Source of the DNA: Spirochaetales bacterium
Lineage (GTDB): Bacteria > Spirochaetota > Spirochaetia > Sphaerochaetales > Sphaerochaetaceae
Length of the DNA: 33,106 nt
NCBI GenBank assembly: GCA_012514185.1
Contig: JAAZAT010000223.1
Span: 1 to 33,106, forward strand
Direction: 5' to 3'
Part shown: positions 5,453 through 19,179 of the stretch, piece after piece
Numbering within the stretch: the stretch's first letter is position 1
Layout: every line of letters starts with the position of its first letter
The notes under the pieces: model-generated
Told to the model about the DNA's origin: nothing
Database searches by the model: none
What the model saw: the letters and a program-made list of their open reading frames with translations, nothing else
Made by a program: the position numbers and the translations under genes

Positions 5453-5941
5453 ATGATAATCAGAGCATGTACCGAACTGGATATCCCGGCCATGACCGAG
5501 CTTTGGAACGAAATCGTCGATGAAGGCAATGCCTTTCCCCAGGATGAGAAGCTTGACAGCGCAAAGGCTTCGGCTTTCTTTTGCAGCCAAAGCTATGCAG
5601 CGGTTGCCATCGATGAAGGCGAACTTGCAGGCCTGTACATTCTGCATCCGAACAACGTAGGAAGGGCTGGGCATATAGCCAATGCATCGTATGCGGTGAA
5701 GAAGGCCCTGCGGCACAAAGGAATCGGAAAGGCCTTGGTCGAGGACTCGCTGGGCCAACTTTCCCGCTTCGGCTTCAGGATCCTGCAATTCAATGCCGTC
5801 GTCGCCTCGAATACCCGGGCTCTGGCGCTGTATGAACGACTTGGTTTTGAAAAGCTGGGGACAATCAGGGGCGGGTTTGCCAAGGATGACGGGTCTTATG
5901 AGGATATCGTGAGCATGGTCTATTATGTACCAGGCCAATGA
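5453..5941 (+). CDS. GNAT-family N-acetyltransferase
   Basis: This 162-residue protein has the GNAT fold: an N-terminal IIRACTELDIPAMTELWNE start, a central sheet, and the acetyl-CoA pyrophosphate loop RHKGIGKAL (R87, G90, G92). NTRALALYERLGFEKLGTIRGGF is the usual motif B and C-terminal segment. It should transfer an acetyl group from acetyl-CoA to an amine in the cytoplasm; the resemblance is to the RimI/PhnO-like or amino-acid acetyltransferases, but the acceptor is not predictable. It is divergent from the Sua5 gene, 73 bases away. There is no Shine-Dalgarno sequence before ATG 5453; an extended -10 lies just upstream. Confidence 0.88.
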   Translation: MIIRACTELDIPAMTELWNEIVDEGNAFPQDEKLDSAKASAFFCSQSYAAVAIDEGELAGLYILHPNNVGRAGHIANASYAVKKALRHKGIGKALVEDSLGQLSRFGFRILQFNAVVASNTRALALYERLGFEKLGTIRGGFAKDDGSYEDIVSMVYYVPGQ

Positions 5942-6038
5942 TCAGGACCTGTTTGATCCCGGTCCTTTCATGGTTTATCCTAAAACCATATTCTTGCAAG
6001 GGAAGCCTCTCCCAATGAAAAGAAGGCGGATGATCAGT

Positions 6039-6836: not shown

Positions 6837-6938
6837 CATAGTGATCTTCTGGAATATATTACCGCATCCATTGGATGTTTGATGGTATAGATGCAGGTTT
6901 TTCGTGCACTGTCCCCGTTTTTTCCCAAGGAGGTCCTC

Positions 6939-7433
6939 ATGAGCGATCGACACACCGCGATCCAGGAAATAGTAGCGTCCCACCGTACCGAGCGCGGAGC
7001 ACTACTTTCCATTCTGGAAGCCGTCCAGCGCAGCAGCGATCACAACTACCTCAGCAAGGAGGAGTTGGTCCTGGTTGCCAAGGAGTTGGAAGTACCCCTC
7101 TCAACAGTCTATTCAGTTGCCACCTTCTATGCGTTTTTCAATCTCAAGGCACAAGGCGAGCATGTGATCACCGTCTGCAGGGGGACAGCCTGTCATACCC
7201 GCGGTTCCAAGCCGTTGCTAACGCAGGTTCTCAAGCAACTGAACCTTCAGCTTGATGAAGAGGGGACTGCCACCACCGACGATGTGCGATTCACTGTCCA
7301 CACTGTGGCGTGCTTCGGCCAATGTGCACTAGCTCCAGTCATCGCCATTGATTCAGTCATCCATTCCCGCGTGACGGAGCAAAAGCTCAGTCAGATGCTG
7401 CAGTCGCTTCTCGAAGGCAAGGAGGTCTCATGA
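6939..7433 (+). CDS. hydC: NuoE-like subunit of electron-bifurcating [FeFe] hydrogenase (gamma subunit)
   Basis: This 164-residue protein is a thioredoxin-like [2Fe-2S] ferredoxin of the NuoE family. Helical residues 1-65 precede the cluster domain, whose ligands are C80 and C85 (VCRGTACHTRG) and C125 and C129 (VACFGQCALAP). In bifurcating hydrogenases it carries electrons beside the flavin subunit. Start ATG 6939 follows AAGGAGG at 6928-6934; an in-frame upstream extension to 6891 has no such site. Its last four bases (ATGA) overlap the start of the next gene, so translation is probably coupled in a three-gene operon. Length is typical. Confidence 0.92.
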   Translation: MSDRHTAIQEIVASHRTERGALLSILEAVQRSSDHNYLSKEELVLVAKELEVPLSTVYSVATFYAFFNLKAQGEHVITVCRGTACHTRGSKPLLTQVLKQLNLQLDEEGTATTDDVRFTVHTVACFGQCALAPVIAIDSVIHSRVTEQKLSQMLQSLLEGKEVS

Positions 7434-10400
7434 ACAAACTATTGGACAGGCTCCAGAGCGAAGGGCAGCAGAGCATGTACCCGAGCCATCCCGGCATTGC
7501 CGTAGGGATGGGGACGTGCGGAATCGGAAGCGGTGCTGCAGAGGTATATGCTGCATTCAAGAAAGAGATAGAGAATCGGAATCTGCATGTGAGATTGCGC
7601 AGTGTAGGCTGCTTCGGTTGCTGCAGTGAAGAGCCTTTGGTCTCGCTCCAGCTTCCGGGCAAGCCCTTGGTGTGGTTGTCCAAGGTGGAGGTTGCCGATG
7701 TCCCCCTCATTCTCGACGACCTGAAGCAAGGTACCTATTACAAGCCGAAAGCCTTGTGCAAAATCACCGAATGGGACCACCACCTGGCGTTTCACTCCTA
7801 CGGTGAGGACTTTGATGAACTTCCTCATTGGCATGAGGTGCCCTTTTTCCATGCACAGAAGAAACTGGTGCTGCGTGATGCCGGCCTCATCGACCCTGCA
7901 AACATTGCAGAGTATGTAGCCGTCGGCGGGTATCGGTCGTTGGAGAAAGTCTTGGGAGGAATGAGCAGGAGCGAGGTGCTGGCTGAAGTGAAGGACTCCA
8001 AGCTGAGGGGACGCGGAGGGGCGGGCTTCCCCACAGGCATGAAGTGGGAGTTGATGGCCAAGGAGCCCAGCGAGCCGAAGTTCCTCATCTGCAATGCCGA
8101 TGAAGGCGACCCCGGTGCCTATATGAACCGCAATGAGATGGAAAGCGATCCCCACATGCTGATCGAAGGCATGCTCATCGCAAGCTACGCCACCGGTGCC
8201 CGGGAGGGTATCATTTACGTACGCGCCGAGTATCCTTTGGCGGTGCAGCGGCTTCGCATCGCCATCGACCAGGCCTACCAAGTAGGACTTCTGGGTGACA
8301 ATATCCTTGACCGCAAGTTCAGCTTCAACCTCTCGGTTGTGGAAGGGGCGGGTGCGTTTGTCTGCGGCGAAGAAACAGCCTTGATCGCCTCTCTGGAAGG
8401 AAAGGCGGGAAGAGCGAGGGTAAAGCCCCCCTTCCCCTCCCAAAAAGGATTTCTGGGTCGTCCGACCACCATCAACAACCTGGAGACGTGGTGCAACATA
8501 CCGCTGATCATCGGAAAGGGAAGCGCCTGGTTTACCAGGATCGGCAATCCCTCCAGCCCGGGAACCAAGGTGTTCTCCTTGGTGGGAAAGGTGAAGAACA
8601 CCGGTTTGGTCGAACTGCCGCTTGAAGAGAAGCTTACCACCCTTATCTATGAAGCAGGAGGCGGGCCCGTCAACGCCAACAAGAAAATCAAGGCAGTGCA
8701 GAGCGGCGGTCCATCCGGTGGATGCATCCCCGCACGACTGTTCAACAGTACCATCGACTATGAAAGTCTGGGAGCGCTGGGAGCCATCATGGGGTCGGGG
8801 GGGATGGTCGTCATGGACAGCGACAACTGCATGGTCGACTCCGCCCGGTATTTCTTGGAATTCACGACCAAGGAGTCTTGTGGAACCTGCACCCCCTGCC
8901 GCGAAGGCCTGAGCCAAGCCCTCGGCCTCGTGTCGGGGATTTGTGAAGGCAGGGGCGGGGAGGAGGACCTGCAGACTCTCAAGGAACTGGGCCTGCATAT
9001 CAGCGACACCGCCCTCTGCGGCTTGGGCCAGTCTGCGATGAATCCGGTCCTCACCACCCTCTCCTATTTTCCCGAGGAGTATGAGAGCCATATCAAACGA
9101 GGCAAGTGTGAGGCTGGAACCTGTGAAGCCTTGGTAGGGGAGCTTTGCTCCAACTCCTGTCCGCTTGCCATGAGGATCCCCTCATACATCGCACTCTTGA
9201 AGGAGGACCGCCTGGTTGAAGCCTTTACCTCCACCTTGGAGGACAATCCCCTGCCGGGCACCTTGGGCCGTATTTGTCACTTCCACTGCCAGATGCGCTG
9301 CAGGCGTGACGACCTGGACGGACCGGTGCATCAGGGAGAGTTGCATCGTTACCTTGCCGATACCCTGTACAAGATGGGCCAAGAACAGGATGTCTATCAG
9401 GCGCTCCTTGAGAGAATGCCCGTTCAAACCAAGAAACGCATAGCAATCGTAGGGGCGGGACCGGCTGGGCTGTCTGCGGCTTTCTACTTGAGGAGGCTGG
9501 GCCATGAGGTGACTGTCTACGACGAACACCAGAAGGCTGGAGGCGTGCTGCGCTATGGCATTCCCAACTACCGCCTGCCCAAGGAGGTGTTGGAAAAGGA
9601 ACTTGAACTATTCACCACCCTCGGCGTCCGCTTCGCTTTGGGCAAAGCCCTGGGTCGTGACGTGCACCTTGCTTCCCTGCAAGCGGACAGTGATGCGGTG
9701 ATTCTCGCTTTGGGCTCCTATCACCACGCAACCTTGGAATTGGCAGGCAGCGAAGGACCCGGCTTTGTGCAGGGCACCGAGGTCCTCAGGCTCCTCAGTG
9801 AAGGACAAGAAGCCGATGTGGGAAGACAGGTGGTGATCCTCGGAGGCGGCAATGTCGCCATCGATGTCGCCCGCTCGCTTTGGAGGAAAGGCTGCCAGGT
9901 GACGATCGCCTACCGGAGGGGCAGGGATGAGATGCCTGCCAACCGCAGCGAGATCGAGGAAGCATTTGCTGAAGGCATTCATTTCCTGTTCGATGTAGCC
10001 CCTTCCCGGGTTTTGCGGGATGCAAAGGGAGGGATACACGGTCTTGAGCTGAATCAGCTCCAGCTGGGTCCGTATGACCTCAGTGGCAGAAGACAGCGGA
10101 CCGAGAGTGGACAGAAGATTGTTCTTGGTTGTGAGAGTGTAATCGCAGCCATAGGCGAGCGTGTCGATACCCCGTTGCTGACAAGGCTGGGACTTTCGGT
10201 TTCCAAGCATGGATACCTTGAAGCGACGCACTACGGCTACAAGACGAATCTTGAGAACGTTTGGGCGATCGGGGATGTCATCACCGGTCCCTCGACGGCT
10301 GCCCAAGCCATGGGGCAAGGTAAGGAAGTGGCACGAATCATCGACAGAACATTGATGGGAGTCGACCGATTTGCAACACTTTTTACCAAGTTCGACTACG

Positions 10401-10582
10401 ACCATACGGTGGGGAAAACGCTCTATGAGGGGAAGGCCATCAATGCGCTAAAACTTGCACCAAAGGATCGCCAACTCTCGTTTGCCGAGGTGAATCGTGG
10501 GTACACCGGCCGCCAAGCCCGCATGGAAGCCACACGCTGTCTGCGCTGCGATATCAAAATACAGGAGGTGAGCAATGGATGA
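7430..10582 (+). CDS. hydB: NuoF/HydB-like hydrogenase subunit fused to a GltD/NfnB-like flavoprotein
   Basis: This 1050-residue protein is two enzymes in one chain. Residues 1-110 are a thioredoxin-like ferredoxin domain (C30, C61, C64, C65). Residues about 140-550 are the NuoF/HydB core: FMN loop RGRGGAGFPTGMKW (193-206), GAGAFVCGEETAL (307-318), SLBB region, and [4Fe-4S] ligands C484, C487, C490 and C530. Residues 555-1050 are a complete GltD-type module: N-terminal cluster cysteines (C573, C577, C616, C620, C624), FAD fold IVGAGPAGLSAA (673-684), a second dinucleotide fold ILGGGNVAIDVA (803-814) followed by YRRGRDEMPA (828-837), typical of NADPH-binding relatives, and a closing FAD motif AIGDVITGP. 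The terminal RCLRCD also fits GltD-like proteins. Ordinary HydB subunits, about 600 residues, have two extra ferredoxin clusters at the C terminus; here the GltD module takes their place. The protein may couple H2 and ferredoxin to both NAD(H) and NADP(H); this is inference. It overlaps hydC by 4 and hydA by 8 bases. Confidence 0.9.
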   Translation: MNKLLDRLQSEGQQSMYPSHPGIAVGMGTCGIGSGAAEVYAAFKKEIENRNLHVRLRSVGCFGCCSEEPLVSLQLPGKPLVWLSKVEVADVPLILDDLKQGTYYKPKALCKITEWDHHLAFHSYGEDFDELPHWHEVPFFHAQKKLVLRDAGLIDPANIAEYVAVGGYRSLEKVLGGMSRSEVLAEVKDSKLRGRGGAGFPTGMKWELMAKEPSEPKFLICNADEGDPGAYMNRNEMESDPHMLIEGMLIASYATGAREGIIYVRAEYPLAVQRLRIAIDQAYQVGLLGDNILDRKFSFNLSVVEGAGAFVCGEETALIASLEGKAGRARVKPPFPSQKGFLGRPTTINNLETWCNIPLIIGKGSAWFTRIGNPSSPGTKVFSLVGKVKNTGLVELPLEEKLTTLIYEAGGGPVNANKKIKAVQSGGPSGGCIPARLFNSTIDYESLGALGAIMGSGGMVVMDSDNCMVDSARYFLEFTTKESCGTCTPCREGLSQALGLVSGICEGRGGEEDLQTLKELGLHISDTALCGLGQSAMNPVLTTLSYFPEEYESHIKRGKCEAGTCEALVGELCSNSCPLAMRIPSYIALLKEDRLVEAFTSTLEDNPLPGTLGRICHFHCQMRCRRDDLDGPVHQGELHRYLADTLYKMGQEQDVYQALLERMPVQTKKRIAIVGAGPAGLSAAFYLRRLGHEVTVYDEHQKAGGVLRYGIPNYRLPKEVLEKELELFTTLGVRFALGKALGRDVHLASLQADSDAVILALGSYHHATLELAGSEGPGFVQGTEVLRLLSEGQEADVGRQVVILGGGNVAIDVARSLWRKGCQVTIAYRRGRDEMPANRSEIEEAFAEGIHFLFDVAPSRVLRDAKGGIHGLELNQLQLGPYDLSGRRQRTESGQKIVLGCESVIAAIGERVDTPLLTRLGLSVSKHGYLEATHYGYKTNLENVWAIGDVITGPSTAAQAMGQGKEVARIIDRTLMGVDRFATLFTKFDYDHTVGKTLYEGKAINALKLAPKDRQLSFAEVNRGYTGRQARMEATRCLRCDIKIQEVSNG

Positions 10583-12359
10583 GCAGATGATCAGCTGTAC
10601 CATAGATGGGAAAACCATCACCGTGGAAAGAGGCACCCGCATTCTCGATGCCTGCGAGCGTGCCGGCATCAAGATCCCAACGCTCTGTTACCTCAAGGAT
10701 GTGAGTTCTCACGGCTCCTGCGGTGTGTGTGTGGTGGAGGTGGAGGGCGCCAAACGCTTGGTTCGCTCCTGCATGCATACCGTCATGCCCGGCATGGTGA
10801 TCCATACCCATAATCAGCGGGTCCTGCATGCAAGAAAGCTCAATCTGGAACTGGTGTTGGCCAATCATCCGCTTCTTTGCACCACCTGTGAACGCAATCT
10901 AAACTGCGAACTGCAAGCGCTCAGCCAGCAGCTGGGGGTGCGAACAAGTCGCTTTCCAAGGACAAAAAAGAAATTCGAGGAAGTTGATGTCACCTCTGCA
11001 TCACTCATCCGCGATCCCAATGCCTGCATCCTCTGCAATCGTTGTGTAGAGGTATGCGCCTCGATGCAGTCGGTATCTGCAATCCAGATGGTGGGACGCG
11101 GACTGAAGACGAAGGTGGCAACCTTCTACGACCAGGGATTGGGCAACTCGGTCTGCACCAACTGCGGGCAGTGCTCGCTTGTCTGCCCTACTGCAGCCAT
11201 TACGGAGAAAAGCCAGGCACAGCAGGTCTTTGACGCCCTTGCTGACCCGTCGCTGGTGGTTCTGGTGCAAACCGCCCCCGCCATCAGGGTGGGCCTGGGA
11301 GAGGCGATGGGGCTGGGGGAGGGAAGCCTGGTGACAGGCCAAATGGTCAGTTCCCTCAGGGCTTTGGGCTTCGACAAGGTATTCGACACCCAGTTTACAG
11401 CCGACCTGACCATTATGGAGGAAGCCTACGAGCTGATGCACCGCCTCACCCATCAGGGGCAGCTGCCCATGATAACCAGCTGCTCACCGGGGTGGATCAA
11501 GTTCATCGAAACCTTCTATCCCGAGCAGGTAGGGCACCTCTCCTCCTGCAAGTCACCGCAACAGATGTTCGGCGCCATCGCCAAGACGTTTTATGCCGAG
11601 CAGGCACACCTCGATCCCAGAAAGATTCGAGTGGTTTCAATCATGCCTTGCACGGCAAAAAAGTTCGAAGCCGGTCGCAGCGAGATGGACAGCTCCTTCG
11701 CCTATTGGAAGGAAAAGCTCAATCTATCGGAGGTGGAGCGGTTCGCTGATGTTGATTGGGCCCTTACCACCCGGGAGCTTGCTAAAATGCTTAAGCAGGT
11801 GGGCATAGACTTTGCCGGCTTGGAAGCGTCCGACTTCGATGATCCCTTGGGAGCATCCACCGGAGGCGCTGTTATTTTCGCCTCTTCAGGAGGGGTGATG
11901 GAAGCAGCGCTCAGAACCGCAGTAGAGAAGTTGACCGGAACCGTACTGCAGGATGTCGAGTTCGCCTCACTTCGTGAGCGGAAGGGAATTCGGGAGGCCG
12001 CCCTCAAGATCGGCGAGAGCACGGTCAAGGTGGCGGTGGCCAACACCTTGTCCAACGCCCGGGTCCTGCTCGACCAGATCAAGGCCGGCACCAGTCCGTA
12101 TACCTTCATCGAGGTGATGACCTGCCCCGACGGCTGTCTTGGCGGCGGAGGCCAGCCCATCCCTACAAATGCCGACATCCGAGCAAAGCGCGCAGAGTCG
12201 ATTTATGAGGAGGACCGCAGCAAGCCGATCCGAAAGTCTCATGAGAACCCGGCAATCCAGGATTTGTATGCACGGTTTTTAGACCAGCCGTTGTCGCCTA
12301 TGAGCCACCACCTGCTGCATACCACCTACACCAAGCGGGTGGTGTATCCACTCGATTGA
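10575..12359 (+). CDS. hydA: [FeFe] hydrogenase catalytic subunit HydA
   Basis: This 594-residue protein has the M3 layout: [2Fe-2S] domain (C38, C49, C52, C66), a His-Cys3 cluster (H98, C102, C105, C111), two [4Fe-4S] clusters (C151/154/157/161 and C194/197/200/204), then the H-domain. L2 is IMPCTAKKFE (C359) and L3 is EVMTCPDGCLGGGGQP (C517, C521). L1 reads TSCSPGW (302-307 region): the residue before Pro, Cys300 in Clostridium CpI and a cubane ligand, is Ser304 here, while Cys303 matches the proton-relay Cys299. A Cys325 (LSSCKSP) stands where CpI has Ala. I believe related NAD(P)-linked trimeric enzymes share this pair, so I do not call it inactive. It reduces protons or oxidises H2 in the cytoplasm with the two upstream subunits. 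AGGAGG precedes the start. The 3' end overlaps the convergent protease gene by 34 bases. Maturases HydEFG are not in the window. Confidence 0.95.
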   Translation: MDEQMISCTIDGKTITVERGTRILDACERAGIKIPTLCYLKDVSSHGSCGVCVVEVEGAKRLVRSCMHTVMPGMVIHTHNQRVLHARKLNLELVLANHPLLCTTCERNLNCELQALSQQLGVRTSRFPRTKKKFEEVDVTSASLIRDPNACILCNRCVEVCASMQSVSAIQMVGRGLKTKVATFYDQGLGNSVCTNCGQCSLVCPTAAITEKSQAQQVFDALADPSLVVLVQTAPAIRVGLGEAMGLGEGSLVTGQMVSSLRALGFDKVFDTQFTADLTIMEEAYELMHRLTHQGQLPMITSCSPGWIKFIETFYPEQVGHLSSCKSPQQMFGAIAKTFYAEQAHLDPRKIRVVSIMPCTAKKFEAGRSEMDSSFAYWKEKLNLSEVERFADVDWALTTRELAKMLKQVGIDFAGLEASDFDDPLGASTGGAVIFASSGGVMEAALRTAVEKLTGTVLQDVEFASLRERKGIREAALKIGESTVKVAVANTLSNARVLLDQIKAGTSPYTFIEVMTCPDGCLGGGGQPIPTNADIRAKRAESIYEEDRSKPIRKSHENPAIQDLYARFLDQPLSPMSHHLLHTTYTKRVVYPLD

Positions 12360-13236: not shown

Positions 13237-13265
13237 TTGGGTTGCTCCTGCTCATATGGTATACT
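13237..13265 (+). promoter_or_regulatory. Promoter of the nuclease/ATPase operon
   Basis: TTGGGT (13237-13242), 17 bases, TATACT (13260-13265). The predicted start near 13272 leaves a very short leader that still contains GGAGG before ATG 13284. The remainder of the gap from 13055 to 13236 shows no further strong signal. Confidence 0.6.
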
Positions 13266-13283: not shown

Positions 13284-14498
13284 ATGAGAATTCTGGCATG
13301 TGCAGACATCCATATGGGCAGAAAGCCTGCATTGGCGCAATCGGGTCATAGCAGTTGGGATGCCATCATAGAGAAAGCCCTCAGTCTAGCGGTTGATGTG
13401 GTTGTCCTGGTCGGTGATGTGGTGGAACAAGAAAAAGCCTGGCTTTCGGTGTACGGCCCCTTGCTCAAAGGATTGCAGACGCTCAAGGAAGCAGGTATCA
13501 GGGTTATCGGGGTGGGAGGCAATCATGACTGGAACATCTTTCCCAGCCTGGTGCAGGACAGTGATGCCATCACGATCCTCGGCCTTGGCGGGAAATGGGA
13601 GAGTCTGGACATCGGATGTGTCCGATTTCTCGGCTGGTCGTTTCCCTCAGGCCATGAAAAAGAGAATCCTCTGAAAAAGTTTCCCAGCACTCTGCTCAAT
13701 CCCTCTCGCATACACCTTGGCTTGCTGCATGCCGACTATGGAATGGCATTCTCCTCGTATGCACCGATACAGGAACACGACCTGCTTCATAGCGGCGTAG
13801 ACCTTTGGATGCTCGGGCACATCCACAAGAGGGGCAGGGTTGGAACAGATAATGCATACTACTGCGGCTCTCCGTACGCCCTCGATGTGAATGAGATGGG
13901 TGAGCATGGCATCTATCTCTTGGAGACGGAAGGAGAGATGCACTTCAAGGAGCCGCTCTTCATACCTCTCTGCCCGTATCGGTATGAGACGTGCTGCGTA
14001 GACGTAAGCGGCATCCATGATGCCAATGGGATTCAGCAAGAACTTAGCAAGAGCATCCGCACCTGTATCCAGGAGCTCAAGTATGAAGGAACGCTGTATG
14101 TGAAGGCTGTCTTCACCGGCACACTCAATCTTACTCTCAACCTAGGAGAGATCATGCAAAAGAAGAAGGACGACGATGCCTTCTTCCTGGAGGAACAAGG
14201 GGTTGTCGCCTACTTGCTCGATCGTTATGAGGACCAAACCGAGCTTGCAATCGACTTGGAGCAGCTGTCGAAGGGAAGCGGGCCCGATGCACTGCTTGCC
14301 AAAAAACTGCTCGATCCAGAGCAGTTGGACCGATTGGCGAGGCAGTATCAAAGCCTCAACGAAGAGAGCTGCAACAGCTCGGCGTACAGCAGGCTGGACA
14401 GTTCTAGCCTGAGTTTGGAAGAAGCTGCAAATCTGGCCAGGCAAGCAGGCATGCGGCTGCTCCAAGCGATGGTTGTGCAAAAAGAAGGAGAACGGTAA
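13284..14498 (+). CDS. YhaO/SbcD-like metallophosphoesterase (DNA exonuclease)
   Basis: This 404-residue protein has the calcineurin-like metal motifs in order: D8-x-H10 (ADIH), D45 (GDVVE), N80-H81-D82 (GNHD), H149 (LLHAD), and GHIH (H179, H181). Length and the long C-terminal part resemble B. subtilis YhaO and the SbcD/Mre11 nucleases, which process DNA ends with an SMC-like partner. The ATPase gene begins at the last base of its stop codon (TAATG), so the two are translationally coupled and surely work together. GGAGG lies before ATG 13284 and a good promoter just upstream. A general phosphodiesterase role is less likely given the partner. Confidence 0.9.
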   Translation: MRILACADIHMGRKPALAQSGHSSWDAIIEKALSLAVDVVVLVGDVVEQEKAWLSVYGPLLKGLQTLKEAGIRVIGVGGNHDWNIFPSLVQDSDAITILGLGGKWESLDIGCVRFLGWSFPSGHEKENPLKKFPSTLLNPSRIHLGLLHADYGMAFSSYAPIQEHDLLHSGVDLWMLGHIHKRGRVGTDNAYYCGSPYALDVNEMGEHGIYLLETEGEMHFKEPLFIPLCPYRYETCCVDVSGIHDANGIQQELSKSIRTCIQELKYEGTLYVKAVFTGTLNLTLNLGEIMQKKKDDDAFFLEEQGVVAYLLDRYEDQTELAIDLEQLSKGSGPDALLAKKLLDPEQLDRLARQYQSLNEESCNSSAYSRLDSSSLSLEEAANLARQAGMRLLQAMVVQKEGER

Positions 14499-17400
14499 TG
14501 GGGAAACAGCATCAGTTCACTTCGTTTTCACTCTTTCGCGCACCCGGATTTCCCAGCCATACCTTCCCGGATTTACGATCCCTCCATAGCGGCTTGAATG
14601 TCGTACATGGACCGAACGGAGTAGGCAAGACCACGATGGTTCGGACCATGCGCTGCTTGTTGTTCGCATCCGACTGTCCGAAAAACCTGGAAGCAGAGGC
14701 CCATATGGCTTCTGGTGGGCAGACGTGGCATCTGAGCCTGTCCCAGGGCAAGCTCGTACAGAAGCGCCTCGATACCGGAGAAGAGACCCGCCTGCCGGGA
14801 CGCAACGACGAGTATGCGGATGCCTACTGGTTCCCGTTGCACGAGCTTTTGGAATCTGTAGGTTCGCAGAGCGTATTTCTCCAAGCCATCCAAAAAGAGA
14901 TGCAAGGGGGGATCGACCTTCAGCTTGCACTGCGGCAAGCCAAAGGCATTGCAGCGTTTTCAAACGGAAGAATTTCCCTTGCCAAGAGTGTTGCCGATGC
15001 GTACAAAGCCTATGATGATATTCGTAAGGAATTGCAGGCCAACGTTTCTCTGAAGACCGAGATCGCGCAACTTGAACGTGAGCTGTCTCGTCAGCCTGAC
15101 TTGCAACAAACCGCTGTCCGGTTGAAAACGGTGCAAGCGTATCTTGTGGCGCTTGAGAAGAGACGGGCCTTGCTTGCCGACCTGCAGGGGTATGACAGCA
15201 CCATTGCCCTGCTGAATGAGCATACGCTCAAGGATGCGCAGGCATTGCAGGCAGCATTGGACCAAGCCGATGAAGCGGTAAGACAGAGGCTGGCCGCCAT
15301 CAAGATCGACCAGGCGGCTTTTGACAACCTCAAAGTCGCACCCGAATTCCTTGAGAACCCCAATCTTGTTCAAATCATCACCGCCCGGATCGATACGATC
15401 AAGGAGCTTGATAACCAAGTACGTTCGGCAGAAAAGGAATTGCAAAGCACCGAAACTGCCTTGAAGGTGTGTGAAGAGCAGCTTTCCTGGTTGGTGAGCC
15501 AGATCCCGGACCAAGGCAATTTGGAACGCATGGTGGAAAAGCTGGCCCAGCTTGCCCATACGTGCGAACCGCTTCGATGCAATCTCGCAGCCTCGGATAC
15601 CCTTGTCCGGCAACTGGGTGAAATACTACCTGTTGATTTGCAGGAAAAAGAGAGGCTGGAATCTTTAAAGGCAACGTTGCTTCTTTGCATCGAGACGCTT
15701 GGGAGCATGAACTCCACAGCGAAAACCAAGCCTCACTCGAGCAAAGTACTGCTTCTTGGCACAGTCGCCCTCTCCTTGTTAGGATCGCTGCTATCCATTA
15801 CCGTCTCCCCGGTGCTCGGCTTGCTCGGAACCTTGGCTGTCGCTGTATTCGGCCTGCTCTTTTCCAGGCACAAACCCAATGAAGAGTACCAGTCGCTCCA
15901 AACGTTGCTGGCTTCCTATCAAGAACGGCTTGAAAAGCAACTGGGCACCTTCGCCCTCGATTCCTTCGATGTCGCAGGTCTTGCGAGCTTGCTTCGGAAC
16001 GTTCTTGCAAAGATGGCCGAACTGGAGCGCATTGAAGGGGAGAATGAGAGCCGAAGAAAGACCGAGCAAATCCATGAGCAGGCCAAGGCTGCCTATCAGC
16101 TGTGGCTTGATGAATGGGAACAAGCAAGCAGGACGCTCAACTTGACCGAGGAGCCGAACCTGCAAGGATCGCAATTCTTTCATCTGTCTCCTCTGCTTAA
16201 GGATTGGGTGCACGCAGTAAGTGCCGAGGCTCAGGTTGCGGCCAATGTGCTGCAGGCAAGGGAGCAGCTCCAAGCAGCGGCTCTTGATTTGGCACGGCTG
16301 TGCAGGTTGCAGGAGACCAAGGTTGTCGATATCACAGCCGGCTCGCAGAATCTGATACACACCATCCAAAATGCATCCAAGCTTCAAGACCGCTTGCAAA
16401 GCCAAAAGGAGTTGCTCGTACAGGAAAAACAGCGACAGGGTACCGTTGCATCGGATTTGCAAAAGTTTTTCGAACGGCTCAAGCTTGCCTCAGGCGACCT
16501 GCAGACTCTGGAAAACCTGCAGAGCCAGTATGAACAGTATCGCGAGCTTGAAGATCAAAAGCGTGGATATGAGCAATCACTCAATACTTATCCACCGGAG
16601 ATAGTTGAGTTTGCTGCAAGCACCACGCTGGACGAAGTCATGAGCATGATCTCCAATGCAGAGGCCGAGCTTGGGCAGCTGGAGGAGCTGCGCGAAGAGT
16701 ACGGGAGAAAGCGGGAGCGGTATGATTCGTTGTGCTCGGATACCAAGTTGGAGGAAGCGCTGTTCAAGTACGAGGCGGCCAAGGAGGCCTTGGAGGCCCA
16801 ACGAAGAGAGGAAGTGCACGAGCGCATGGTGTACACCCTCTTTGAGGAGGTGAAGCAAGAGTCGGAATCGATCCATGTACCGCAAGTGGTCCGCCATGCG
16901 AGTAATTGGTTGCTGCGAATCACGGCAAACCGGTTCTCACTGGGCATGAGCAAGGGAACCTTCACTGCTTTGGACACTGCATTGGGCAGAAGTTTCTCCC
17001 TGGCGGAGCTTTCAAGCGGTAGTCGTGTCCAACTGCTCTTTGCGGTAAGGATGGCTTTTCTACAGATGCTGGAAAGCGGAGGTGAGTATCACTTTCCTGT
17101 CTTCTTTGACGAACTGATGGCCAATAGCGACGACCAACGATCAATGGCGATTGCAGAGGCCATTGTTGAGATTTCCAAGGACCGGCAGGTCTTCTATTGC
17201 ACTGCACAACTGGACGAGGTGACCAAGCTTCAGGACGTGGCAAAGGGGGAGTTGCAGGTGATCGGGTTGGAGGACGAGAAGCGCAGCTACCGGATCCAGC
17301 AAAGTCCCTTCTCTGCAGTCAAGGTCGAGGCAACGCCCCTCATCGAACCTCTTGCAGAGTATCAGGAGTATGGCAGGGCTCTGGGGATTTCAGCACCCCT

Positions 17401-17920
17401 CTTGTATGATCCGATCGGAAGTCTCAGCAGCTGGTACCTGTGCAGCGACAGCCAAGAGTTGCATCACCTCCTGGGGCGGGGGTTTTCTCATGCCGGCCAA
17501 GCCGCCCGGGTGGGGGAGCCGTATCAGAGCCGCCTTTCCTTGATGGCCCAGGCTCAGGCGTTGGCGAGAATCGGCAGGCCGAAAATCCTTACTGTCCATG
17601 ATATTTCGGATGAGGAGTTGAAACTGAATCGCAGTGCTGCATACTACGAGAGCCTGCAGGTCTTCTTGCAGGAGGAACACAGGACAGGAAACGATGTGCT
17701 TGCGGCCATCGACGCAAAGGTGTTCAAAGGTTTTAGGGAAAATGCGAGGGATGCTCTTGCCTCCTACTTGTTCGAGAAGGGGTTCGCAACCGATGAGTCT
17801 TCCCATCCGATTGCACAGATTCTGGATACACTCTGTCTCTCCGATCCCGATCTGCGCGTGGACAGTGAAAACTACCGGCTTGTACAAAGGTACCTGTTGA
17901 GTCTGGATCTCGAGAATTAA
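14498..17920 (+). CDS. YhaN/SbcC-like SMC-type ATPase with membrane hairpin and C-terminal extension
   Basis: This 1140-residue protein has Walker A GPNGVGKT (38-45), two long coiled-coil stretches rich in Leu, Glu and Gln, an ABC-type signature ELSSGSRVQ (837-845), and Walker B ending in FFDEL (D871, E872). This is the layout of SbcC/Rad50 and especially B. subtilis YhaN. At about 414-460, at the far end of the coil where SbcC has its zinc hook, lie two hydrophobic segments (VLLLGTVALSLL and LGLLGTLAVAVFGLLF) that look like a membrane hairpin; no CxxC hook is seen. After the ATPase head, residues about 915-1140 form an extension I cannot assign, mostly helical with a GRPKILTVHDISDEEL segment. 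The protein should hold and remodel DNA ends, possibly at the membrane, with the upstream nuclease. The start overlaps the nuclease stop. Confidence 0.88.
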   Translation: MGKQHQFTSFSLFRAPGFPSHTFPDLRSLHSGLNVVHGPNGVGKTTMVRTMRCLLFASDCPKNLEAEAHMASGGQTWHLSLSQGKLVQKRLDTGEETRLPGRNDEYADAYWFPLHELLESVGSQSVFLQAIQKEMQGGIDLQLALRQAKGIAAFSNGRISLAKSVADAYKAYDDIRKELQANVSLKTEIAQLERELSRQPDLQQTAVRLKTVQAYLVALEKRRALLADLQGYDSTIALLNEHTLKDAQALQAALDQADEAVRQRLAAIKIDQAAFDNLKVAPEFLENPNLVQIITARIDTIKELDNQVRSAEKELQSTETALKVCEEQLSWLVSQIPDQGNLERMVEKLAQLAHTCEPLRCNLAASDTLVRQLGEILPVDLQEKERLESLKATLLLCIETLGSMNSTAKTKPHSSKVLLLGTVALSLLGSLLSITVSPVLGLLGTLAVAVFGLLFSRHKPNEEYQSLQTLLASYQERLEKQLGTFALDSFDVAGLASLLRNVLAKMAELERIEGENESRRKTEQIHEQAKAAYQLWLDEWEQASRTLNLTEEPNLQGSQFFHLSPLLKDWVHAVSAEAQVAANVLQAREQLQAAALDLARLCRLQETKVVDITAGSQNLIHTIQNASKLQDRLQSQKELLVQEKQRQGTVASDLQKFFERLKLASGDLQTLENLQSQYEQYRELEDQKRGYEQSLNTYPPEIVEFAASTTLDEVMSMISNAEAELGQLEELREEYGRKRERYDSLCSDTKLEEALFKYEAAKEALEAQRREEVHERMVYTLFEEVKQESESIHVPQVVRHASNWLLRITANRFSLGMSKGTFTALDTALGRSFSLAELSSGSRVQLLFAVRMAFLQMLESGGEYHFPVFFDELMANSDDQRSMAIAEAIVEISKDRQVFYCTAQLDEVTKLQDVAKGELQVIGLEDEKRSYRIQQSPFSAVKVEATPLIEPLAEYQEYGRALGISAPLLYDPIGSLSSWYLCSDSQELHHLLGRGFSHAGQAARVGEPYQSRLSLMAQAQALARIGRPKILTVHDISDEELKLNRSAAYYESLQVFLQEEHRTGNDVLAAIDAKVFKGFRENARDALASYLFEKGFATDESSHPIAQILDTLCLSDPDLRVDSENYRLVQRYLLSLDLEN

Positions 17921-17945
17921 GGTTTCTTTTTCCTTGCCTTTGGCG

Positions 17946-17951
17946 TATACT
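17946..17951 (+). promoter_or_regulatory. -10 box of the MFS gene; leaderless start
   Basis: TATACT ends 7 bases before ATG 17959, and no ribosome site lies between, so transcription should begin at the start codon. The -35 at 17 bases (TTTCTT) is weak. Confidence 0.5.
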
Positions 17952-17958
17952 ACGCCCC

Positions 17959-19179
17959 ATGTATCGATCCACCATCCGTGCCTGCTATTTGGGCAACTTC
18001 ATCGGGGCTTTGACCTGCAACCTTGCCCCGCTTTTGTATGTGACGTTCATGCATGAATTCGGCATCACCTTCGAACAGGCTGGAAGGTTAACCCTGCTCA
18101 ACTTTTTCACCCAGATCGTGGCCGACTTGGCTTTCAGCCGCCCGGTGGACAAATGGGGGGTGAGGCCCTTCATCACCCTGGGCCACTTTCTGGCCTTTCT
18201 CGGATTCCTTTTGTTGGCGTTTGCCCCGAAACTCTTTCCAGCAAATCCTTATCTCGGCCTGATGGTCGCAACGATTGTGTATTCAATCGGGGGCGGCCTG
18301 TTCGAACTGCTGCTCAGTGCAATCGTCCAATCAATACCCAATGACTCGAAGGAGAAGGCGATGAGCCTGCTGCACTCCTTCTATGCATGGGGTTTCATCG
18401 TCGTAGTCATTGGAACAACGCTGATGATCAAGGTGCTGGGACGCAGCAACTGGCCGATTCTGGTGCTCATCTGGTCGGTCTTCCCGCTGATCAACTTCTT
18501 CAACTTCCTCCGTGTCCCCCTCGCTCCTGCAATCAGTGAAGAAAAACGTACGAAAATCCGTGAGTTGCTCAGCTCTCGATATTTTCTGTTCGTGGTATTG
18601 GGGATTGCCGTCGGGGGAGCCACCGAAGTCTCCATGTCACAGTGGACAAGCGCGTTCGTCGAGGCCTCGTTAGGACTGCCCAAGGAAGTAGGCGATCTTT
18701 TAGGGCTCTGCTTGTTCGCCCTCCTCTTGGGTTCCATCCGGGCGGTCTATGGTGCATGGGGCGATAAATTCCCGCTCTATAAGGCCATGCTCTTTGGCAG
18801 CGTGCTCTGCATTGCCTGTTACTTGGTTGCCGCCTTCAGTCCTTTGCCAGCCATCTGCCTTGTCGCCTGCATTTTTGCAGGTCTTGGAAGCGGCCTCCTC
18901 TGGCCGGGATCGGTCGTCAACGGAGCCAATCGTTTTCCCTATGCAGGCTCTTCTCTCTTTGCCTTTCTTGCAGCCGGAGGTGATGCCGGTGCTGCTTTCG
19001 GCCCCTGGCTTATCGGCCTCACTGCAGATGTGGCCCCCTCGTTGGTGAAGGTTGCTCCGTGGCTCAAGCATTTGACCTTGGAGGAATCGGCGCTGAGAAG
19101 CGGTATGCTCATCGGATCCTTGTTCCCCATCCTGATGGTGATTTTCCTTACGAGGATGAAGAAACAGGAGGCAAAGTAG
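17959..19179 (+). CDS. MFS transporter
   Basis: This 406-residue membrane protein has about 12 hydrophobic segments split into two halves, with an MFS motif A-like loop after TM2 (SRPVDKWGVRPFI) and the equivalent GAWGDKF loop in the second half. The general pattern is like sugar/proton symporters of the FucP/YbjJ type, but no substrate-specific motif is recognisable. It would move a small solute across the inner membrane. ATG 17959 lacks a Shine-Dalgarno sequence and lies 7 bases after TATACT. Its 3' end overlaps the convergent cyclic-nucleotide-binding gene by 32 bases. Confidence 0.87.
   Translation: MYRSTIRACYLGNFIGALTCNLAPLLYVTFMHEFGITFEQAGRLTLLNFFTQIVADLAFSRPVDKWGVRPFITLGHFLAFLGFLLLAFAPKLFPANPYLGLMVATIVYSIGGGLFELLLSAIVQSIPNDSKEKAMSLLHSFYAWGFIVVVIGTTLMIKVLGRSNWPILVLIWSVFPLINFFNFLRVPLAPAISEEKRTKIRELLSSRYFLFVVLGIAVGGATEVSMSQWTSAFVEASLGLPKEVGDLLGLCLFALLLGSIRAVYGAWGDKFPLYKAMLFGSVLCIACYLVAAFSPLPAICLVACIFAGLGSGLLWPGSVVNGANRFPYAGSSLFAFLAAGGDAGAAFGPWLIGLTADVAPSLVKVAPWLKHLTLEESALRSGMLIGSLFPILMVIFLTRMKKQEAK

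Follow-up and report, generated by a model that had tools for sequence, protein, structure and literature searches.

We analyzed a 33,106-nucleotide stretch of a Spirochaetales bacterium genome (assembly GCA_012514185.1, contig JAAZAT010000223.1), hereafter the window, in which an Mre11/SbcD-like nuclease gene is directly followed by a gene for an ATPase related to YhaN (SbcE). The two products probably form a membrane-anchored, SbcE/SbcF-like version of the Mre11–Rad50 complex that carries an added C-terminal domain and most likely serves the repair of chromosomal DNA ends. Judged by sequence comparison, the pair is not a plain member of the SbcE/SbcF (YhaN/YhaO) group; it is a separate branch that carries the added domain.

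An extension of the ATPase after Walker B, at residues 915–1140, had been proposed in the initial annotation. The added domain is real, but its boundary needs correction. In the full model the ATPase head ends near residue 935, and a linker with a predicted local distance difference test score (pLDDT) below 50 follows at residues 940–945; the domain modeled beyond it spans about residues 946–1140, or some 195 residues. The tail after Walker B is 270 residues long in the window protein and 264–342 residues long (median 286) in 70 homologues. Bacillota YhaN-related proteins provide the comparison: from 30 fetched loci, 28 frames were used, the other two loci having no matching frame of 500 residues. 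Walker B could be located in 12 of the 28 (many of the others are truncated where the fetched stretch stops), and these 12 chains end 39–84 residues past Walker B, with no extension in any of them. A profile of the extension gave at best a stray match to the 28 frames (independent E-value 0.02), and Enterococcus faecalis YhaN lacks the domain. Thus, the extension does not align to the C-terminus of ordinary YhaN proteins.

Within the window's own branch the extension is nearly constant. The family extension profile A2 finds it in 73 of 74 complete C-termini, comprising 18/18 from spirochaetes, a partly circular count, and 55/56 from elsewhere; only L114 departs, with a match restricted to part of the extension. 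Carriers belong to Spirochaetota, Bacteroidota, Halobacteria, Bipolaricaulota, and further groups, which rules out a lineage-specific add-on and answers the initial question of whether the domain is restricted to related taxa. Whole-genome draws yielded it in 3 of 296 genomes of Spirochaetota, in 6 of 294 from the phylum that includes Haloferax larsenii, and in 17 of 395 from the phylum that includes a Parabacteroides, the center genome being included in each count. All 26 matches fall within open frames of at least 1099 residues, one of which (G346) crosses a TAG. The extension is therefore best regarded as a fixed part of one ATPase branch; a free or reshuffled domain was not seen among these matches.

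Modeled alone with 73 sequences, residues 911–1140 form a confident helical structure (mean pLDDT 93.5; predicted template modeling score, pTM, 0.80). The profile and structure searches called for at the outset returned no significant named match. Foldseek found nothing for the extension model at E ≤ 0.001 in the PDB (best 0.43) or among viral models, and the best VIA-align score was weak (Z 4.0), although the absence of a fold match does not prove a new fold. Scans of the 73 extensions against Pfam, NCBIfam, and PHROGs gave stray matches, none involving more than two members (best E in Pfam, 0.0019). PDB sequence matches to a lower-collar protein (0.003, single sequence) and to de novo TIM barrels (0.002, profile) were taken as chance. 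The second half of the extension (model residues 118–189) aligned to liprin chains, which we take to be SAM domains, at Z 4.0 and 3.9 over 64–66 residues, a match too weak to be used.

The sequence of the extension is nevertheless constrained. Among 62 proteins, G1026 never varies, and at least 90% retain Y958, W979, and R1027. The domain is usually acidic, with an isoelectric point of 5.01 in the window and a median of 5.00 (range 4.24–9.41) for the C-terminal 195 residues in 65 homologues. The ratio of nonsynonymous to synonymous substitution rates (dN/dS) was computed for 12 pairs and is 0.11–0.38 in 10; of the other two, one pair is too alike (0.01/0.02) and one has a saturated dS. In every pair where both rates could be estimated, dN is below dS (for example, 0.24/1.41, 0.12/0.66, 0.09/0.41). 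The extension is under purifying selection, and these low ratios give no support to diversifying selection.

The extension may also have its own local history. Against its nearest relative (L002, genome G005), the window shows 79–96% DNA identity over 13398–17197 and 66–77% over 17198–17997, the part that holds the extension, where dS rises to 1.41. Because the divergence is raised in dS too, this pattern suggests that the window or its relative acquired another extension allele by recombination. The coils of these two proteins differ from those of a further relative (L003) far more than the flanking major facilitator superfamily (MFS) gene does.

The remainder of the ATPase has the layout of an SMC/Rad50-type protein. 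The reading frame at 14498–17920 was confirmed as real. As read from its motifs and its AlphaFold model, the head is split between both chain ends, with two long coil arms and a hydrophobic hairpin between them. Walker A residues G38, N40, G43, and K44 and Walker B/D-loop residues D871, E872, and D878 are invariant across 62 aligned proteins, as are L838 and S839 of the ABC signature across 20 aligned family proteins. In a Foldseek search of the PDB with the full model, Smc5/6 (E 6.6e-17) and condensin (1.7e-16) chains ranked first, and the Chaetomium Mre11–Rad50–Nbs1 complex was also matched (3.1e-15).

Rad50-type machines are thought to join via a zinc hook. The window protein has no CxxC motif anywhere in its length, and such a motif occurs within residues 331–620 in only 2 of 65 homologues. 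At the turn of the coil there is instead a hydrophobic pair, as initially proposed, located by Kyte–Doolittle hydropathy at residues 414–457 (peak 2.19) and modeled as two helices at 415–435 and 439–455. Its position is constant across the genus and family, in 22/22 full-length proteins counting the window's own, while its sequence is hardly conserved. All 65 full-length homologues from named genomes likewise have a hydropathy above 1.6 at this place; their cores average 43 residues, and elsewhere in their coils the peak has a median of 0.55. Neither hydropathy nor the model predicts the pair as a soluble coil, and the hairpin is probably a membrane anchor. It is not peculiar to the window protein, however. 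A hydrophobic stretch is present in E. faecalis YhaN (residues 427–459) and in all 28 Bacillota frames related to it, whereas Escherichia coli SbcC peaks at 1.41 and carries a CPLC zinc hook at 506. By this comparison, a hairpin in place of the zinc hook is a usual YhaN/SbcE trait.

The nuclease directly upstream is the only constant neighbor of the ATPase. Tight coupling of the two genes through a TAATG overlap, noted at the outset, is borne out at 14496–14500. The nuclease motif residues D8, H10, G44, D45, G79, N80, H81, D82, H149, G178, H179, and H181 are each kept in 59–63 of 63 aligned partners. We surveyed the best 80 of 111 loci encoding a relative. An ATPase gene was called in 79 of these, and by gene calling the nuclease lies upstream in 62 (60 adjacent, two one called frame away). 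Eleven of the 79 ATPase genes start within 600 bases of a contig end. For six apparent absences inside contigs, tblastn recovered a full-length partner in four and a partial one in two (L080, L101); the L082 locus is also cut by a contig end. In L080 (Salinibaculum litoreum), the ATPase is whole and tblastn detects only residues 325–433 of the nuclease, at 5654–5980. In 56 of the 62 loci, the ATPase gene either overlaps the nuclease gene or starts no more than 13 bases beyond its last codon, and a 4-base overlap is the commonest arrangement (27/62), counts that depend on the chosen start codons.

The partners also share much of their history. Distances in the ATPase and nuclease trees correlate at 0.93 over 58 pairs, and 25 well-supported splits are common to both (of 36 and 35). 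Spirochaete copies form one set in the ATPase tree and haloarchaeal copies another. The placement of the outgroup, whose row is very long, is uncertain. Because Bacteroidota copies are mixed with those of Balneolota, Elusimicrobiota, and others, the tree suggests that the pair moves together; mis-binned contigs are a possible alternative. The retention of the nuclease motifs, together with the linkage of the genes, points to nuclease work and bears on a quite different role, in which the protein would tether the chromosome to the membrane or organize it as SMC proteins do, the nuclease being secondary and the extension binding a chromosomal or divisome protein. The top ranking of Smc5/6 and condensin chains, the hairpin in 65/65 homologues, and the acidic C-terminal domain would all suit such an organizer. 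With the nuclease so well kept, we regard it as very unlikely.

It is useful to set the pair beside the systems that it most resembles. With SbcE/SbcF it shares the Mre11-like gene directly before the ATPase gene, seen in both E. faecalis and the window, and an SMC/Rad50-type head with a hydrophobic stretch in mid-coil. It differs in the long tail described above and in its profile score: E. faecalis YhaN matches Pfam AAA_27 (PF13514) along its length at 78.5 bits, while the window protein reaches 20.5 bits, below the cut-off of 22. Since it fails both the short C-terminus and the AAA_27 score, we did not file the pair as plain YhaN; some relatives of the branch do pass that cut-off (G018, 29.6 bits; G011, 35.3 bits). 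The E. faecalis pair also has an HD-domain gene on its 3′ side. With SbcCD and Rad50–Mre11, the window pair shares a split ABC ATPase, long coils, an Mre11-like partner, closely spaced genes, and conserved motifs. It departs from them in its hairpin and in its nuclease, which falls under the cut-off of all five matching NCBIfam SbcD/Mre11 models, scoring 32.9 bits against the SbcD model (cut-off 77.65). Finally, an AAA_27 protein of Desulfohalobiaceae (L171) is a coiled-coil ATPase of similar size (1166 residues) with neither hairpin nor extension, and that genome encodes a protein of the window's branch (L085) as well.

How might such a complex act? As in Rad50–Mre11, two ATPase heads would engage with ATP around DNA and gate a nuclease dimer bound at the heads and the coil base. 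The membrane hairpins would secure the distal tips of the coils to the cytoplasmic membrane, and processing of DNA ends or blocked hairpins would then take place close to it. The extension could be a docking or regulatory arm that holds the nuclease or recruits a repair or membrane partner. Because it is acidic and sits on a flexible linker, we consider this more likely than a DNA-binding role. Published work places SbcE/SbcF, the best-matching systems that have been studied, in a repair setting: SbcE is described as an SMC-like protein in double-strand break (DSB) repair (PMC4205851), yhaO and yhaN of Bacillus pumilus appear among lexA/SOS genes induced by H2O2 (PMC3896406), and SbcEF is grouped with SMC-like proteins (PMC12748557).

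The distribution of the pair is informative about its role. The ATPase occurs in 25 of 26 genomes of the window's genus, some of which have only fragments of it at contig ends. Elsewhere in the family, 3 of 10 genomes carry it, and none of 24 examined from the rest of the class does. Its near universality in the genus leads us to favor housekeeping DNA repair over defense. Indeed, in three single-contig congeners (G002, G005, G018) no SbcD passes the TIGR00619 cut-off, and the pair may be their sole SbcCD-like pair.

The initial annotation had raised the possibility of action on incoming DNA. A fuller version would have the membrane pair degrade or process entering phage, plasmid, or transforming DNA, with the extension sensing or docking the entry machinery. 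SbcE is reportedly tied to competence as well as to DSB repair, going by the title of a 2010 study by Krishnamurthy et al. The branch is patchy across phyla, and nine haloarchaeal plasmid records contain a match (one partial). In the five examined, the ATPase is annotated as an SMC/AAA family ATPase beside a DNA repair exonuclease, and some have primase, orc1/cdc6 and integrase, or ParA genes near the pair. In addition, the PADLOC profile of the Lamassu protein LmuB matches 19 of 20 family members. That similarity is low, however (35 bits in the window), running through Walker A and the coil, and the PbeC, AriA, and PtuA profiles match as widely. Lamassu chains stand lower in the fold list, and the window protein differs from LmuB in having an Mre11-like partner and the hairpin. 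Among seven scanned neighbors in the window there was no LmuC, and the one LmuA match, to the Rossmann part of a hydrogenase subunit, is spurious.

The wider neighborhood also argues against this role. Neighbors shared among spirochaete loci, for example genes for an MFS protein (8 loci) and a hydrogenase subunit (6 loci), are unlike a defense island and are not common to other phyla. We clustered the neighbors of the 80 loci and examined the 40 widest clusters. Apart from the pair itself, the largest comprises 9 loci. Clusters spanning more than one phylum are generic (ABC ATPases, a thioredoxin-reductase-like protein, response regulators, kinases); no third gene of a specific kind recurs across phyla among them. 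The viral contigs searched yielded no confirmed relative, and a DNA search of phage records gave no match. At the protein level, phage records gave two matches, both from Enterococcus and confined to query residues 696–925 and 793–925, which look like pieces of E. faecalis YhaN. Thus, action on incoming DNA is unsupported as first stated, and given the near-universal presence in the genus we consider it unlikely.

Several observations weigh against a membrane-anchored repair complex. The charges flanking the hairpin (15 residues on each side) average 2.0 and 3.2 K+R vs. 1.7 and 2.6 D+E, so that there is no strong positive-inside signal and the support for a membrane topology is weak. Moreover, 24 of 65 hairpin cores contain more than two charged residues, and in one homologue a coil stretch outside the hairpin reaches a hydropathy of 1.97. 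Together with two Bacillota stretches of just 20 and 27 residues (L211, L218), the flanking and core charges would fit an ordinary soluble SbcCD-like complex in which the hydrophobic pair is a dimerizing hairpin that replaces the zinc hook outside the membrane. The uniform hydropathy, core length, and two-helix model of the hairpin, and its presence throughout the Bacillota relatives as opposed to SbcC, make that arrangement highly improbable.

Returning to the membrane-anchored repair complex, the models constrain it loosely: the whole-model PDB matches have template modeling scores of only ∼0.2, and the full model has a pTM of 0.40, which leaves the placement of the extension against the head unfixed. 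The isoelectric point of the extension rises as high as 9.41 within the family. The branch is patchily distributed, and the agreement between the partner trees partly reflects shared descent. Eleven of the 26 genus genomes encode an SbcD above the TIGR00619 cut-off; the pair therefore cannot simply be equated with the SbcCD of these genomes. LexA is encoded in the genome, with lexA immediately following another reading frame, and the regions upstream of lexA and of the pair showed no conspicuous shared palindrome that could be a LexA-type site. In PMC12748557, SbcEF is dispensable for the viability of Bacillus subtilis carrying a nicking Cas9 (replication-nick assay). Lastly, the literature searched contained no assay, localization, or DNA-damage phenotype for the window's branch, and we recognized no open-license paper on the branch or its extension.

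Table 1. Positions of the nuclease–ATPase pair and its elements in the window
Feature	Coordinates	Strand	Basis or note
TATACT, candidate −10-like element	13260..13265	+	by eye; 18 bases before nuclease start
Mre11/SbcD-like metallophosphoesterase, 404 aa	13284..14498	+	Pfam Metallophos 1.8e-10
YhaN/SbcE-like SMC/Rad50-type ATPase	14498..17920	+	1140 aa
Walker A, residues 38–45 (GPNGVGKT)	14609..14632	+	motif reading
N-terminal coiled-coil arm, residues 157–406	14966..15715	+	helices in AlphaFold model
Predicted membrane hairpin, residues 414–457, turn between coil arms	15737..15868	+	hydropathy and model
C-terminal coiled-coil arm, residues 462–792	15881..16873	+	helices in AlphaFold model
ABC signature, residues 838–842 (LSSGS)	17009..17023	+	motif reading
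Walker B and D-loop, residues 871–879 (DELMANSDD)	17108..17134	+	motif reading
C-terminal helical extension, residues 946–1140 (195 aa)	17333..17917	+	model, family profile, purifying selection

The DNA before the nuclease gene gives some indication of how the pair is expressed. The TATACT element recurs at a like place in 7 of 9 congeners; G002 has TATAGT and G016 has none. In five congeners (L255–L259, from G001, G019, G012, G017, and G003), the pair is separated from an upstream reading frame by a G-rich/C-rich inverted repeat that resembles a terminator by eye, and TATACT comes after this repeat. Since a terminator-like repeat and then TATACT precede the nuclease at these loci, the pair probably has its own promoter.

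Other features of these loci stand apart from the pair. The window encodes an NADH-dependent [FeFe] hydrogenase group A6 operon at 6891–12359, whose 1050-residue NuoF-type subunit is fused to a GltD-like half (Fer4_20 and Pyr_redox_2). A gene that begins shortly after the pair, from ∼9622, is common to four haloarchaeal loci (L080, L083, L084, L129); two of its copies are 510 and 520 residues long. A 747-kb E. faecalis “plasmid” record (NZ_CP143580.1, L165) contains the chromosomal-looking genes for PBP1A, yhaO–yhaN, and a peptidylprolyl isomerase, and it may be a mislabeled part of the chromosome.

Beyond repair, a bolder reading can be entertained tentatively, as possible but improbable. The branch could be a distinct Mre11–Rad50 machine at the cytoplasmic membrane of bacteria and halophilic archaea, in which a helical control domain of its own, with an unmatched fold, would couple ATPase-driven nuclease action to an event at the membrane, such as DNA entry or chromosome tethering. 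On top of the likely membrane anchor of YhaN/SbcE, the branch adds a conserved domain that is unnamed in the libraries searched. The extension thus offers a removable module for asking why a DNA-end nuclease would sit on the membrane, a question that is approachable in bacteria as well as in haloarchaea amenable to culture and manipulation.

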